From: a virus
Reading direction: 5' to 3' (one strand)
Length of the DNA stretch: 34,686 nucleotides
Virus record (IMG/VR): IMGVR_UViG_3300042521_000852
Location: 1-34,686 of that record
Each line of letters starts with the position of its first letter. The first letter of the stretch is position 1. The translations under genes were made by a program, and so were the position numbers. Below the pieces are notes generated by a model. It saw nothing but the letters and a program-made list of their open reading frames with translations, did no database searches and was not told where the DNA came from. This document shows positions 17,604-31,137 of the stretch, piece by piece.

Positions 17604-17725
17604 ACGTCCTGCTCTCGCTCGCCCTCCTTGCGATCTGCTATCTGATCTCGATGTGGACGGGCGGTGAGATCATTCACGCGATCCTGCTCTATATGCTCCT
17701 GCGGATAAACGATCGCTTGCCATGA
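17600..17725 (+). CDS. 41-residue membrane protein with two hydrophobic segments
   Basis: ATG 17600 overlaps the preceding TGA and its own stop overlaps the methyltransferase ATG (both ATGA). The sequence is almost wholly hydrophobic: VLLSLALLAICYLISMW, then a GGE turn, then IIHAILLYMLL and a charged end. The double coupling makes it very likely to be translated. Function unknown. Confidence 0.65.
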   Translation: MNVLLSLALLAICYLISMWTGGEIIHAILLYMLLRINDRLP

Positions 17726-18690
17726 ATGTTTTAGATTTGTTCAGCGGCATCGGAGGCTTTAGCCTTGGGCTAGAGCGAGCAGGGATGAAAACTGTAGCGT
17801 TTTGCGAGATTGATAAATTCTGTCGCAAAGTTTTAACGCATCATTGGCCGACAGTACCAATCTACGAAGATATTAAATCGTTAACTGCTCAAAAACTGAA
17901 AGAAGACAACATAATCGTTGACGTTATTTGCGGTGGTTTCCCATGCCAGGACATATCAACGGCAGGAAAAGGGGAGGGATTAAAAGGTGAGCGATCAGGA
18001 TTGTGGCGAGAATATGCTCGACTTATTGGCGAGATACGACCCAGATACGTTATCGTGGAAAACGTCGCAGCGTTGCTTTTTCGAGGATTACCAGACGTTC
18101 TCGGAGACTTGGCCTCGCTCGGGTACGATGCGGAATGGCATTGCATACCGGCTTCCTACATTGGCGCACCTCACCGTCGAGATAGAATCTGGATTTTGGC
18201 CTACCCCAACAGCAATGGACAAAATAGACCCGAAAACCCCAAAAGCGATCGTAAAAGAAATGAACGAGCAGCGCCCTGGCAGAACATATCTAGCGAATTT
18301 GAGGGATCAAGTTGTATGGGGGAGGACTTTCAGCGAAGTCAAAACGAAGTTATTTGCAACCCCGACAACCAAGGCGAATCAATTGGCTCCTTCGATGATG
18401 AAGCATCCAGGGTGCAGAGCAATGCTTCCAACTCCGACAGCGAGAGATTACAAAGGGGCGAGGAAGCCGGAGACGATGGAAAAAACTGGGCGCAATCGAG
18501 AAACCAACTCATTACCGGATGCCGTGGAGTTTCAAGATCAGCCTGGGAGATTGAACCCAACGTGGGTCGAGTGGCTAATGGGGTTCCCGCTCGGATGGAC
18601 AGACTTAAATCGTTAGGTAATGCAGTCGTTCCACAAATTCCAGAAATCCTCGGCAAAGCGATAATGAGTCATGCGCTACGCAATGCGTAA
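17722..18690 (+). CDS. C5 cytosine DNA methyltransferase
   Basis: 322 residues from the ATG in ATGA. All key motifs are visible: I DLFSGIGG (residues 5-12), IV GGFPCQD with catalytic Cys75, the GKGEGLKGERSGLW loop, VI ENV (Glu113), VIII HRRDRIWILA (151-160), and IX-X VGRVANGVPARMDRLKSLGN followed by AVVPQ. It methylates cytosine in a target that the sequence does not reveal, probably to shield phage DNA from restriction. The target recognition region (about residues 165-270) is low in hydrophobics and overlaps a second gene in the +1 frame. The downstream nuclease frame overlaps by 20 bases. Confidence 0.93.
   Translation: MNVLDLFSGIGGFSLGLERAGMKTVAFCEIDKFCRKVLTHHWPTVPIYEDIKSLTAQKLKEDNIIVDVICGGFPCQDISTAGKGEGLKGERSGLWREYARLIGEIRPRYVIVENVAALLFRGLPDVLGDLASLGYDAEWHCIPASYIGAPHRRDRIWILAYPNSNGQNRPENPKSDRKRNERAAPWQNISSEFEGSSCMGEDFQRSQNEVICNPDNQGESIGSFDDEASRVQSNASNSDSERLQRGEEAGDDGKNWAQSRNQLITGCRGVSRSAWEIEPNVGRVANGVPARMDRLKSLGNAVVPQIPEILGKAIMSHALRNA
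17987..18616 (+). CDS. Embedded gene inside the methyltransferase gene, +1 frame
   Basis: 209 residues from GTG 17987, wholly within the C5 methyltransferase gene. GGGGAGGG at 17971-17978 is an ideal ribosome site eight bases upstream; those bases also encode the conserved GEG of the methylase. The protein looks real: SWKTSQRCFFEDYQTFSETW, PRSGTMRNGIAYRLPTLA, ESGFWPTPTAMD, AMLPTPTARDYKGARKPE, and RLNPTWVEWLMGFPLGWTDL. I recall PTPTA.D and LNP.WVEWLMGFP.GWTDL as recurrent motifs of phage proteins encoded beside or fused to such methylases. Function is not known to me; it may complement target recognition or be an independent protein. Confidence 0.75.
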   Translation: MSDQDCGENMLDLLARYDPDTLSWKTSQRCFFEDYQTFSETWPRSGTMRNGIAYRLPTLAHLTVEIESGFWPTPTAMDKIDPKTPKAIVKEMNEQRPGRTYLANLRDQVVWGRTFSEVKTKLFATPTTKANQLAPSMMKHPGCRAMLPTPTARDYKGARKPETMEKTGRNRETNSLPDAVEFQDQPGRLNPTWVEWLMGFPLGWTDLNR

Positions 18691-19012
18691 AGACCTTAAC
18701 GATTCGGAGATCACCGAAGCGGTTAAGGCGGCAGGATTCAGCGTAATCGACTATACGAAAGCCGGTCTCGGTATCCCTGACAAACTCGCATTGAAACTGC
18801 TGCCGCAGTCCAACGACGACGGAACAGAGATTCACTTTATCTGTTGGCTAGAGATCAAGAGCAAGAACGGGAAACTCTCCGAGATACAGCAGAACGCTAG
18901 ACAGGTCTGGGAGCCCCGAGGGGAATGGATAGAGGCAAGGACGCCCGAGCAGACGGTTAAGGATTTACACGAAAGGTACAATGCCAAGATCAAACAGGAG
19001 TGCGCTCGATGA
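18671..19012 (+). CDS. VRR-NUC-type endonuclease
   Basis: 113 residues from ATG 18671 (ATG 18683 is an alternative). KAGLGIPDKLAL supplies the G-I/V-P-D active-site Asp. CWLEIKSKNGKLSEIQQ is the E-x-K motif with the downstream Gln of the VRR-NUC branch of the PD-(D/E)XK superfamily, which acts on branched DNA or as a resolvase. RKDLNDSEITEAVKAAGFSV is the usual N-terminal helix. It overlaps the methylase end by 20 bases. It probably processes replication or recombination intermediates before packaging. Confidence 0.88.
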   Translation: MRYAMRKDLNDSEITEAVKAAGFSVIDYTKAGLGIPDKLALKLLPQSNDDGTEIHFICWLEIKSKNGKLSEIQQNARQVWEPRGEWIEARTPEQTVKDLHERYNAKIKQECAR

Positions 19013-25601: not shown

Positions 25602-25946
25602 ATGGCCGGAACACATGACATTGTTTGCGATCAGGGTGCGACTTTCTCGCGCGTTTTTACTTGGCAGGATTCAACGGGCGTTCCGGTCAATATCTCCGGC
25701 TACACGGCGCGCATGCAAGTTCGCGCGACGATTTCTTCGGCTTCTACCCTGCTTACGTTTACGACCGAGAACGGCGGCATTACGCTCGGCGGTTCTGCCG
25801 GTACGATTACGGTAACGGCTACTGCAGCAACAACCGCAGCAGTCACAGCGGGTTGCTATGTCTATGATTTGGAATTGATCAACGGCGCAACGGTTTATCG
25901 TTTAGTGCAGGGTCAATTTACGGTTGATGGAGAGGTCACGCGATGA
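25602..25946 (+). CDS. Ig-like beta-sandwich virion protein
   Basis: 114 residues from ATG 25602 with GGAGG upstream. [20 protein letters not shown], then [28 protein letters not shown], and [18 protein letters not shown] with [11 protein letters not shown] is a pattern common in phages just upstream of fibre genes. It probably links a fibre to the particle. ATGA coupling to the collagen-like gene supports a joint assembly. Confidence 0.75.
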
Positions 25947-27595
25947 CGCAATACACCGTTATCGTAGATGAGACAATCAATAACATCGTTGTTGACGAAA
26001 CTACGCAAAACGTCATCGTGCGTGGTCCCGGTCCACAGGGTGCGGTAGGCCCGACAGGGCCGACAGGCGGCGGCGGCACATTAGGGTATTACGGTGCGTT
26101 CTACGATACGACCGATCAGCCGTTGATCAATACGGCTTCAGCACAACCGATCTCTTTCAACGGCACATCGGAAGCCTCTGGCGTTTCGATTCAACTCAAT
26201 GATCGAATCGTGTTCACCTATGCTGGAACGTACTCGATCACTTTTTCAGTGCAGTTGCTCAACACGAATCAGACTGCCCACTATGCTGATATTTGGTTAC
26301 GATTAAATGGCTCAGACGTTGCCGATTCTTCATCTCGTTTTGATGTTCCTGCTCGCAAATCGCAAAATGTTTACGGTCATTTAGTCGGCACAGTCAATTA
26401 TGTTCTGACGGTAACTGCCGGCCAATACATTCAACTGTATTGGAATTCCGACTCAACTGAGGTTTCTATTGAAACACTAGCCGCCGGAACTGCGCCGACC
26501 ACTCCGCGCACTCCGTCTATTATTTTGACGGCGACTCAGGTGATGTATAACCAAGTCGGCCCAACGGGTCCGACGGGGGCAGGACCAACGGGTCCAACGG
26601 GTGATATCGGAGCGACAGGATCGACCGGCGCACAAGGCATTCAGGGTATTGCAGGGCCAACAGGTCCGACCGGATCGACCGGAGCGACGGGTGCTACAGG
26701 CCCAACCGGAGCCACTGGTGATACAGGAGCCATTGGCCCAACGGGTCCGACCGGCGCACAGGGGATTCAGGGCGTTACTGGCCCGACCGGTGCGCAGGGT
26801 ATCCAAGGCGATATTGGCCCCACAGGACCGACAGGAGCCGCCTCGACCGTTGCTGGCCCGACAGGGCCGACCGGAGCGCAAGGCATTCAAGGTGAGACTG
26901 GTCCTACCGGCCCGACGGGTGCTGCCTCTACGGTCGCAGGGCCGACAGGCCCGACGGGTGCGCAAGGTGAAACAGGAGCCACCGGCGCAACGGGCGTCGC
27001 TGGGCCTACTGGTCCAACAGGCGCACAGGGCTTACAGGGCGACGTAGGCCCAACCGGACCAACGGGTGCGGCCTCTACCGTAGCCGGCCCTACGGGGCCG
27101 ACAGGTGCTCAGGGAGAAACTGGCACAACGGGCGCGGCTGGCCCAACGGGTCCGACGGGTTCAACGGGTGCTGCAGGCGCGGATGGTCCTACGGGTCCGA
27201 CCGGAGCGACTGGCGATCCGTCAACTGTGCCCGGACCGACTGGCCCGACAGGGGCTACAGGTGTCGCAGGAGCGGCAGGACCGACCGGACCTACAGGAGC
27301 CACTGGTGATAACGGAGCGGCCGGTCCTACGGGGCCGACAGGTGCATCCGGTGATGCAGGAATTGCTGGTCCTACTGGCCCTACAGGGGCGGCTTCAACC
27401 GTTGCCGGTCCTACAGGTCCTACGGGGGCTACAGGAGCGTCGGGTACTGTTGGGCCTATCGTTGAGTCAGAAATTACGATTGGTCAAAATTACACAATCA
27501 CAAGCGACAAAAACGGATTAAGTGTCGGACCTGTAACTGTTGAAACTGGCTATGCCGTTACCGTTCCGTCCGGTCAAAGGTGGGTGGTTATATGA
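25943..27595 (+). CDS. Collagen-like fibre protein
   Basis: 550 residues. The N-terminus (residues 1-35, [20 protein letters not shown]) resembles a virion-attachment strand repeat and is followed by a short GPTGPTG stretch. A C1q/TNF-like globular domain spans about residues 48-195 ([39 protein letters not shown]). About 300 residues of uninterrupted Gly-X-Y follow, dominated by GPTGPTG with GATG, GAQGIQG and GAASTVA interruptions. The C-terminus ([18 protein letters not shown]) is a short beta cap. The product should be a trimeric collagen triple-helix fibre. Position inside the head module leaves open whether it is on the capsid or the tail. Confidence 0.93.
26558..27460 (+). repeat. Gly-Pro-Thr coding repeat
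   Basis: About 900 bases built on GGN-CCN-ACN units encoding Gly-Pro-Thr. Codon choice varies between copies (GGC/GGT/GGG, CCG/CCA/CCT, ACA/ACG/ACC), which limits DNA-level slippage and suggests selection on the protein. Blocks such as [14 protein letters not shown] recur at least five times. Confidence 0.9.
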
Positions 27596-29088: not shown

Positions 29089-31137
29089 ATGAGCGGTTTA
29101 CAGCAACTTTTGTTAGCACAAGGACAGCCCTCGTCTGACCTTAATTTCGAATATACAACTTTGCTGTTATCAGGTAACGGAACGAACGGGGCGCAGAATA
29201 ATACGTTCCTAGATTCGTCTACCAACAACTTCACGATTACCCGCAACGGCAACACGACGCAGGGCACGTTCTCGCCGTTTTCGCAAACGGAGTGGGGTAA
29301 CTTTTTTGACGGCACAGATGATTATTTGACTACGCCAAATAACGCTGCGGTAAATTTTAGCAACTCAAACTTTACGATTGAAGGTTGGTATTACGTTAAC
29401 AACAATGACCAGATGGGTTGTGTTGAGCGAAGAAGCCAAACATTCATTGCTGGAGATTGGGGCGTATATGTAATTAACGGTGGCGTAGACTTTTTTGCAC
29501 GCGATATCATATTGGCAGGAAGCAACGTACTTTCGAGTGGGTCTCGAACTACAAACCAATGGGTTCATTTTGCTATCGTTAGAAACGGAAGCACATTTAC
29601 GCTTTACATGAATGGAACTTCTGTATCTACATACACATCTTCTAATTCTTTCAACGATAATAGTCTAGGAATTACGATTGGTCGAGATAACGGAACCGGC
29701 AGTTCTGCTGGAAGATATTTCTTTAATGGTTACATCTCAAATCTTCGTATCGTTAAAGGAACCGCGGTCTATACGTCTGATTTCACGGTTCCAACTTCGC
29801 CTCTTACCAACATCACAAACACATCTTTGCTAACTTGTCAAAGCAATCGCTTCGTTGACAACAGCAGCAACGCCTTTGCCATCACGCGCAACGGTGATGT
29901 GTCTGTCCAAGCCTTCAGTCCGTTCAACCCAACTGCGGCATGGACTGCTGGCAATAACGGCGGCAGCGGCTACTTTGATGGGAGCGGGGATTATTTAATT
30001 GCTCCAGACAATACTGCGCTTGAGATGGGCAGCAGTAACTTCACGATTGAGTGTTGGTTCTATCCGTTATCTTTCCCAGCAGACGCTTCAATTATAAGTT
30101 TTGGAAACGCAAACCCAAATCAAAGTTTGATTCCTTTTTATTTTGTAGGTGCAGCCCCGCGTTATTACATTTCAAGCAATGGAACTGCATGGGATATAGT
30201 AAATGGAACCACATTTGGCACAAGTTTAACGACCGGGCAATGGTACCATCTTGCTTTAGTTCGCAACGGCAACACCTTTACCCCATATATCAACGGCGTT
30301 GCTGGAAACACTGCCACTAGTTCGTCTGCGATTTATAATAGTGCAACTAATAAATCTATTGGTGCGGTAACTGACGGAACCATCCCAATAAACGGGTATT
30401 TGTCAGGCCTTCGCGTAGTAAAGGGAACTGCGGTCTATACCGCAAACTTTACCCCGCCAACTGCGCCGCTTACCGCCATTACTAATACGTCGCTTCTGCT
30501 CAATTACACTAACGCAGGCATCTACGACGCTACGTCTAAGAACGACCTTGAGACGGTGGGCAACGCGCAGATCAGCACGACGCAGAGCAAGTTTGGCGGC
30601 TCTTCAATGTATTTTGATGGAACTGGCGATTACCTTTTATCTCAAAGCAATGTCAATCTGCGAATGGGAACTGGCGACTTTACGATTGAGGCATGGGTTT
30701 ATGTAGCGTCTGCGCCGGGCGCAGGAACAAGAGCACGTGTTTATTCGTTCCAAAACCATTCTGCTTCGCAAGTTGGGTTGGTTTTGGCTGTTATAAATAC
30801 AGGCGGCACTTTGTACGGCGATGCAATCCTTCGTTCCTCAAATGGAACGGGAATAACTGTTTATACTGGAACAACCGCAATACCGTTAAATACTTGGACG
30901 CACCTTGCACTCACCAGAAGCGGGACAACGGGGCGCCTTTTTGTAAATGGCAATTTAGAGGACACAGAGACGTCGCAATCTCAAGATTTGTCCCAGGCAC
31001 TTCCGGCTGCCGTTGGAGCCGCTTCTAACAATACGGAGCCATTTACTGGTTACATCCAAGACCTTCGCGTAACCAAGGGCGTGGCCCGTTATACCGCGGC
31101 ATTCACTCCTCCGGCTTTTGCATTTCCTGTTAAGTGA
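29089..31137 (+). CDS. Triple LamG-domain (concanavalin-like) surface protein
   Basis: 682 residues from ATG 29089. Three LamG/concanavalin-like repeats are visible, each with FDGxxDYL, then a FTIExW strand, a WVHFAIVRNG/WYHLALVRNG/WTHLALTRSG strand, and an ending LRxVKGTAVYT or LRVTKGVARYT. They span about 29270-29810, 29965-30475 and 30600-31125. Such domains bind carbohydrates or glycosaminoglycan-like polymers and probably attach the virion to host or environmental glycans. The DNA is more A/T-rich than the head genes. Spacers repeat TNTSLLTCQSN and TNTSLLLNYTN, showing tandem duplication of a domain-plus-linker unit. Confidence 0.9.
   Translation: MSGLQQLLLAQGQPSSDLNFEYTTLLLSGNGTNGAQNNTFLDSSTNNFTITRNGNTTQGTFSPFSQTEWGNFFDGTDDYLTTPNNAAVNFSNSNFTIEGWYYVNNNDQMGCVERRSQTFIAGDWGVYVINGGVDFFARDIILAGSNVLSSGSRTTNQWVHFAIVRNGSTFTLYMNGTSVSTYTSSNSFNDNSLGITIGRDNGTGSSAGRYFFNGYISNLRIVKGTAVYTSDFTVPTSPLTNITNTSLLTCQSNRFVDNSSNAFAITRNGDVSVQAFSPFNPTAAWTAGNNGGSGYFDGSGDYLIAPDNTALEMGSSNFTIECWFYPLSFPADASIISFGNANPNQSLIPFYFVGAAPRYYISSNGTAWDIVNGTTFGTSLTTGQWYHLALVRNGNTFTPYINGVAGNTATSSSAIYNSATNKSIGAVTDGTIPINGYLSGLRVVKGTAVYTANFTPPTAPLTAITNTSLLLNYTNAGIYDATSKNDLETVGNAQISTTQSKFGGSSMYFDGTGDYLLSQSNVNLRMGTGDFTIEAWVYVASAPGAGTRARVYSFQNHSASQVGLVLAVINTGGTLYGDAILRSSNGTGITVYTGTTAIPLNTWTHLALTRSGTTGRLFVNGNLEDTETSQSQDLSQALPAAVGAASNNTEPFTGYIQDLRVTKGVARYTAAFTPPAFAFPVK

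Follow-up and report, generated by a model that had tools for sequence, protein, structure and literature searches.

A phage C5-cytosine DNA methyltransferase probably encoded as two subunits in two reading frames of the same DNA

Long genes that lie entirely within another gene, with selection acting on both frames, usually count as rarities, and annotation rules discourage them. Does a methylase gene with a second open reading frame inside it encode two proteins, and do the two then form one enzyme? This question was raised by a C5-cytosine DNA methyltransferase gene (alpha) in a virus record of IMG/VR, the 34,686 bases of which were analyzed as a whole (the window). The window contained genes for a phage capsid protein, a lambda-type portal, a GpA-type terminase, Erf-like recombination, and O-like replication. 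An inner ORF of 209 amino acids with a GTG start (beta) lay fully inside the alpha ORF, one base ahead of it (relative frame +1). The first-pass annotation had described this 209-codon ORF, running from GTG 17987 to 18616 and nested in the methylase; its coordinates and quoted strings were right, and the match with phrog_1008 pointed to a conserved gene. In a tblastn search of phage genomes with the beta protein, E-values went down to 2e-24. Neither Pfam nor NCBIfam contained a family for beta; a Fucose_iso_N1 match (E 0.036) was rejected as noise. Directly after alpha, and overlapping its end by 20 bases, the gene at 18671-19012 showed a weak VRR-NUC nuclease match under the cut-off (E 0.0055). 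Elsewhere in the window, a collagen-repeat protein adjoining the portal (25943-27595) and another protein, for which three matches were LamG-like (concanavalin-like) (29089-31137), are probably virion surface or tail proteins.

Table 1. Features of the alpha/beta locus in the window, with the basis of each assignment
Feature	Position	Strand	Basis
alpha, C5-cytosine DNA methyltransferase catalytic subunit	17722..18690	+	322 aa, ATG; PF00145 E 2.5e-48
alpha motif content: I-VIII and X, with IX absent	17722..18690	+	profile versus M.HhaI
alpha motif IV GGFPCQDIS, catalytic Cys75	17932..17958	+	invariant P74 C75 Q76 in alignment A2
Shine-Dalgarno-like site for beta (predicted), GGGGAGGG	17971..17978	+	sequence; GGAGG core 17973-17977
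beta, putative target-recognition region and motif IX	17987..18616	+	phrog_1008 E 1.4e-26; +1 frame in 168/170 and 79/80 loci; shuffle test
Dual-constrained zone, beta N-part SWKTSQRC...TFSETWPRSGTMRNGIAYRLP over alpha motifs VI-VIII	18053..18157	+	codon-position divergence
alpha motif VIII HRRDRIWIL	18172..18198	+	aligns to M.HhaI
beta PTP module 1 (WPTPTAMDKIDPKTPKAIV...)	18197..18352	+	
alpha passenger linker between VIII and X, apparently disordered	18202..18552	+	AlphaFold pLDDT; inverted divergence
beta PTP module 2 (FATPTTKANQLAPSMMKHPGCRAM)	18353..18424	+	common to L047/L048, L038, L083, L014
beta PTP module 3 (LPTPTARDYKGARKPETM...)	18425..18547	+	
Motif IX, beta frame, RLNPTWVEWLMGFPLGWTDL	18548..18607	+	L150 homologous string in register with M.HhaI; invariant columns in A1
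alpha motif X LGNAVVPQIPEILGKAI	18613..18663	+	aligned to M.HhaI 297-318; alpha-only constraint.056/.019/.297

Start of the nested gene and its occurrence in relatives

The inner frame has a TAA at 17981-17983, which leaves no beta start earlier than GTG 17987; beta starts at this codon or possibly at ATG 18014. The near-perfect ribosome site that had been noted for the inner GTG was found as described, with the last base of the GGAGG core (17973-17977) 9 bases ahead of the GTG. The GGAGG bases double as the GEG codons of the alpha stretch AGKGEGLKGERSG (17962-18000), and the coding bases of a methylase motif contain an internal ribosome-site-like sequence with a predicted role. Translation of beta from the internal GTG, as predicted here, is the simplest reading. 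Among the relatives, Shine-Dalgarno-like sites stood ahead of candidate beta starts in 21% of loci compared with 6% in synonymous shuffles. An obvious site of this kind was absent in most relatives, and for that reason coupling or another mode of initiation is likely in those loci.

Relatives were collected from records of phages and plasmids, from IMG/VR, and from bacterial genomes at one per species. Of 170 loci, found mostly with the beta protein, 168 had the beta family in the methylase's +1 frame. When the query consisted only of the 88 alpha residues ahead of the overlap (the non-overlapping N-terminus), the beta family was in the +1 frame in 79/80 loci, the sole exception running off the end of its contig; in a second subfamily this was the case in 70/70, the loci sharing ancestry, so that none of these counts is a series of independent trials. 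The loci came from phages of Microcystis, Synechococcus, Acinetobacter, Paenibacillus, Lacticaseibacillus, Arthrobacter, and Mycobacterium, from Rickettsiales plasmids, and from genomes of many bacterial phyla. These searches indicated that hundreds of diverse phages and prophages share the layout. The earlier view that overprinting of a whole gene is rare did not hold for this layout among phages. Many records mark alpha only, and some phage annotators marked both genes, namely in Paenibacillus phage Diva (gp50, 'g49 internal gene') and in Mycobacterium phage Zaka (gp90/gp91). Diva gp50 and Zaka gp90 belong to the beta family, under labels that do not mention a two-frame enzyme; phrog_1008, labelled 'DNA methyltransferase', is likewise the protein family to which beta belongs.

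Distant relatives in Escherichia phage Golestan, a Salmonella phage-plasmid, and a Kosakonia phage (L171, L172, and L173) had an N-terminally extended alpha, and their +1 frame also held TPTAxD-like units and an LNPxxSRWLMG motif. The class is therefore wider than the counted loci. For the Salmonella phage-plasmid form, our search found no close relatives in E. coli. With the Acinetobacter form as the query, a distant search gave four E. coli prophage copies, and in the one copy inspected (L337, E. coli PCP07014 prophage) the methylase was annotated as a pseudogene with an internal stop.

Two arrangements differed from that of the window in the place of beta. In locus L146 (1302-3366), one beta was nested in alpha and a second (beta2) came after it as a gene of its own; beta2 is a stand-alone relative of the inner protein of the kind that the first-pass annotation had proposed to search for. 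The N-part, PTP units, and motif IX of beta2 were intact, and the methylase-frame remnant across it had a decayed motif X (GNA changed to GDA, and the following VPQ gone); one catalytic subunit possibly serves two recognition subunits in this locus. In the second subfamily (L002, L004, and L257-L336; Acinetobacter and other phages), beta was approximately 280-300 amino acids long, began with MSWLFS, and had its ATG four bases past that of alpha (ATGAATG), so that nearly the whole methylase was dual-coded.

Stop codons in the +1 frame of 209 loci numbered 7, 1, and 0 in alpha codons 100-120, 120-140, and 140-160, compared with 224, 121, and 79 expected; homologous methylases do not, then, carry frequent stops in the inner frame. 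Stops were scarce from approximately alpha codon 60 onward and not before codon 40, which agrees with an internal beta start. A translated N-terminal extension of beta in the subfamily of the window was rejected, since +1 stops were not depleted before approximately alpha codon 40-60. These data also bear on programmed +1 frameshifting, which would join the N-terminal half of alpha to the beta frame and yield a long chain with motifs I-VIII, the recognition region, and IX beside ordinary alpha. Such frameshifting would be in keeping with a relative frame that is always +1 and with the absence of a clear Shine-Dalgarno site for beta in many relatives. However, the stop depletion spans a long stretch, the constraint on beta begins well ahead of motif VIII, and the product would lose motifs VI-VIII of alpha. 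Further, the window has a stop just upstream of a GTG with a GGAGG, beta2 of L146 is a separate gene, and a whole subfamily has the ATG of beta beside the alpha start. We consider frameshifting quite improbable and prefer a separately initiated beta.

Division of the methyltransferase motifs between the two chains

The alpha chain, which matched PF00145, held motifs I, IV (PCQ), VI (ENV), VIII, and X. Its profile aligned with M.HhaI over 1-167 (I-VIII) and then again at motif X (M.HhaI 297-318), with no alignment to M.HhaI at motif IX, and neither motif IX nor a recognition region was present in its own chain. In the AlphaFold model of alpha, residues 1-166 and the motif X helix were confident and pLDDT was below 50 over most of residues 168-290. 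Foldseek with the folded part retrieved M.HaeIII (3.4e-17) and M.HhaI.

The C-terminal end of beta was RLNPTWVEWLMGFPLGWTDL, and G187, L189, V194, E195, W196, M198, and G199 were invariant across 91 beta sequences (alignment A1). The same string, of the form LNPxWVEWLMGFP, occurred in the methylase's own frame, directly ahead of motif X, in L010, L150, and L157. The L150 string gave a gapless alignment to motif IX of M.HhaI that ran on into X; the stretch alone scores 3 bits, and the argument is one of position and register. Because the same string aligns in register with M.HhaI in L150, the inner-frame string is identified as motif IX (LNPTWVEWLMGFP), carried by beta. Both motif pairs that the first-pass annotation had read on shared bases were present: frame-1 EPNVGRVANGVPARMDRL (18553-18606) overlies frame-2 LNPTWVEWLMGFPLGWTDL, and RIWILAYPNS (frame 1) overlies FWPTPTAMD (frame 2). 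Its assignment of C5 motif IX to the frame-1 string was wrong, since the register of L150 with M.HhaI places this motif in the frame-2 string. At EPNVGRVANGVPARMDRL, changes that alter alpha and are silent in beta amounted to.255 per site versus.089 for the reverse, approximately a threefold difference, and we regard this alpha string as mostly a by-product (shadow) of motif IX of beta.

The frame that carries motifs IX and X was not the same in all lineages. In L174 (Zaka), the methylase frame ended after motif VIII, and recognition, IX, and X were all in the +1 frame; in L010, L150, and L157, the +1 frame held the recognition units and the methylase frame held IX and X. Motifs IX and X also switch frame in L008, L009, and L253, and the PTP units stay in the +1 frame throughout. 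This variation fits a split enzyme. Two further loci were set aside: an in-frame fusion in L106 (Paenibacillus macquariensis) was rejected as a single-chain form, since its frames looked scrambled and no motif X was present in the same ORF, and L124 was likewise probably frameshifted.

Structure prediction gave little on beta itself. The AlphaFold model of beta alone was of low confidence (pLDDT 63, pTM 0.31), Foldseek with this model found no fold match, and the beta profile found no match among PDB sequences; the poor model fits a chain that needs a partner and proves nothing. Since its fold was not predicted and Pfam has no family for it, beta might be a real, overprinted protein that does something unrelated (anti-restriction or regulation, for example), with alpha working alone. 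Against this, alpha has neither motif IX nor any constrained recognition region and beta carries IX, alpha co-occurred with beta in all but one of the 80 loci found through the alpha N-terminus, and the same IX, or IX and X, lies in the other frame in some lineages, as expected for the parts of one enzyme. We judge an unrelated job very improbable, and take beta as a part of the methyltransferase.

Selection on the two frames along the gene

Divergence was calculated by alpha codon positions 1/2/3 in 26 disjoint pairs of related loci, with the region borders set from motif patterns. Ahead of the overlap, it was.139/.108/.445, as in ordinary methylase coding, and from the early overlap to motif VIII it was.173/.082/.246, indicating constraint on both frames. 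Between motifs VIII and IX, the pattern was inverted (.373/.173/.131), with beta as the coding frame; position 3 exceeded position 1 in 0/19 pairs (p = 4e-6), the sign tests being based on disjoint pairs that still share ancestry. The window itself followed this pattern: in 8/8 comparisons of its middle zone, divergence was highest at inner codon position 3. Divergence was.176/.054/.071 at motif IX and.056/.019/.297 at motif X, beyond the end of beta, where the constraint was on alpha only. The second subfamily showed the same inversion (position 3 above position 1 in 0/25), and its position-3 change was lowered (.249) already from the N-terminus. The earlier claim that both frames are constrained over the same bases therefore stood for the early overlap up to motif VIII and fell for the mid-overlap, where only beta was constrained and alpha was a passenger linker. 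The disordered frame of the AlphaFold model and the frame constrained by codon-position divergence were complementary. These patterns indicated that selection passes along the gene from alpha to both frames, then to beta, and back to alpha.

The inner frame was also compared with shuffles in which synonymous codons were permuted with the methylase protein and codon usage fixed. In the window, the longest +1 run was 210 codons, compared with a mean of 96 and a maximum of 186 in 200 shuffles. Over 159 loci, the +1 frame was open for 255 codons (mean) versus 126 expected, and the +2 frame, as a control, for 66 versus 69. The similarity of the +1 frame to beta of the window was above all 40 shuffles in 158/158 loci; because shuffles never reached this similarity, the conserved look of beta is not a shadow of the methylase motifs. 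The shuffle and codon-position tests together showed that purifying selection acts on the inner frame over and above that on the outer one. That the inner ORF is a chance open frame that looks conserved through such shadowing has a negligible probability: conserved motifs of one frame do cast a shadow on the adjacent frame, and strong alpha motifs fall in the first part of the overlap, but the fixed-protein shuffles and the inverted codon-position pattern reject this explanation, and the N-part of beta is also kept in beta2 of L146, where alpha does not overlap. We conclude from these comparisons that beta is a real, selected protein.

Recognition modules, the proposed enzyme, and known systems

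The middle of beta consists of units, mostly some 20-55 residues long, each starting with a hydrophobic residue followed by xTP; beta of the window has three of these PTP units. Three pairs of loci (L081/L201, L068/L090, and L023/L201) had approximately 94-96% identical DNA up to motif VIII, followed by dissimilar middles of unequal length, with similarity returning at motif IX. From 288 beta proteins, 739 units were cut, and 449 unit pairs with at least 60% identity joined loci with methylase N-termini less than 55% identical, related loci being counted repeatedly. Module 2 of the window and that of L047 showed 95.7% amino acid identity and 45/66 in nucleotides, with the differences distributed 4/1/16 over the beta codon positions. 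Sequence analysis as a whole showed that beta carries motif IX, that alpha does not, and that the middle of beta is swapped modularly. The middle behaves as a target-recognition region exchanged in modules, and with respect to the choice of target we infer this role. The suggestion that the inner protein adds a target-recognition or partner function fits best. Tentatively, and with a little less than an even chance in our estimate, beta would be a tandem array of exchangeable PTP modules that phages trade as in-phase cassettes with both frames open; one alpha could then be re-aimed or become multi-site through changes to the overprinted gene only, and the locus would represent a large, previously undescribed class of dual-frame, module-programmable methyltransferases.

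We consider it highly probable that the two frames of this DNA encode the two subunits of a single m5C DNA methyltransferase. Alpha (322 amino acids) would provide AdoMet binding and catalysis with motifs I-VIII and X, joined by an apparently disordered linker of approximately 120 residues between VIII and X. Beta (209 amino acids), probably translated from the internal GTG with its GGAGG, would supply the small domain, consisting of the conserved N-part, three exchangeable PTP modules, and motif IX. The two chains would assemble into the working heterodimer and methylate phage DNA at one or more sequences, and such marking, in its most plausible role, would let the phage escape host restriction. 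Protection from host restriction is likely because no restriction enzyme gene was recognized among the window genes scanned, a subset of the ORFs.

A methyltransferase split into two polypeptides is already known. In PMC3404938, M.EcoHK31I (YGGCCR; Lee, Kam and Shaw 1995 as cited there) is described as two polypeptides, the larger with motifs I-VIII and X and the smaller with IX, and its recognition domain is reported on the larger chain. The present enzyme is likened to it by this motif layout, with I-VIII and X on the first polypeptide and IX on the second; it differs in that recognition would lie in the nested smaller chain. M.EcoHK31I is in addition a restriction-modification enzyme, unlike the locus described here, where the scanned genes included no recognized restriction enzyme. 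In M.EcoHK31I, the gene of the small subunit lies within that of the large one in a different frame, and the two chains, of approximately 38 and 23 kDa, are close in size to those here. In M.AquI (CYCGRG), motifs I-VIII are on one chain and IX and X on the smaller (PMC3404938). The catalytic motifs I-VIII and motif IX are on separate chains here too, whereas X is on the small chain in M.AquI and in the alpha frame in the window; the M.AquI-like form among the relatives is that of Zaka, with IX and X both off the methylase frame.

In the multispecific m5C methyltransferases of the Bacillus phages SPR, phi3T, and H2, exchangeable recognition units stand in tandem from motif VIII to motif IX. They resemble the present enzyme in being phage enzymes with tandem, swappable modules; they are, however, single chains in a single frame, and the assignment of modules to targets is known for them. 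References to these enzymes are listed in PMC8936443 and PMC4081073. Out-of-frame HNH elements of the ShiLan type in mycobacteriophage methylases are mobile insertions encoding a homing nuclease (PMC11855218). They share with beta a second frame with a GTG start inside a phage methylase gene, whereas beta is a domain of the enzyme itself and had no HNH match in profile searches. Our literature search for the class retrieved only M.EcoHK31I, M.AquI, and the unrelated ShiLan element, and no paper describing the class. The surprise lies in the wide spread and the strict conservation of the dual coding.

For a whole class of phage methylases this arrangement is the usual one, and it persists even where the hosts are very distant from one another. 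The clean hand-over of selection along the gene makes it a good test case for the origin and persistence of overlapping genes. If beta is required, an enzyme cloned as alpha alone would be inactive or mis-specified, and it would not be possible to assign the m5C motifs of many phages and prophages. The swappable modules may offer a route to target specificity from sequence.
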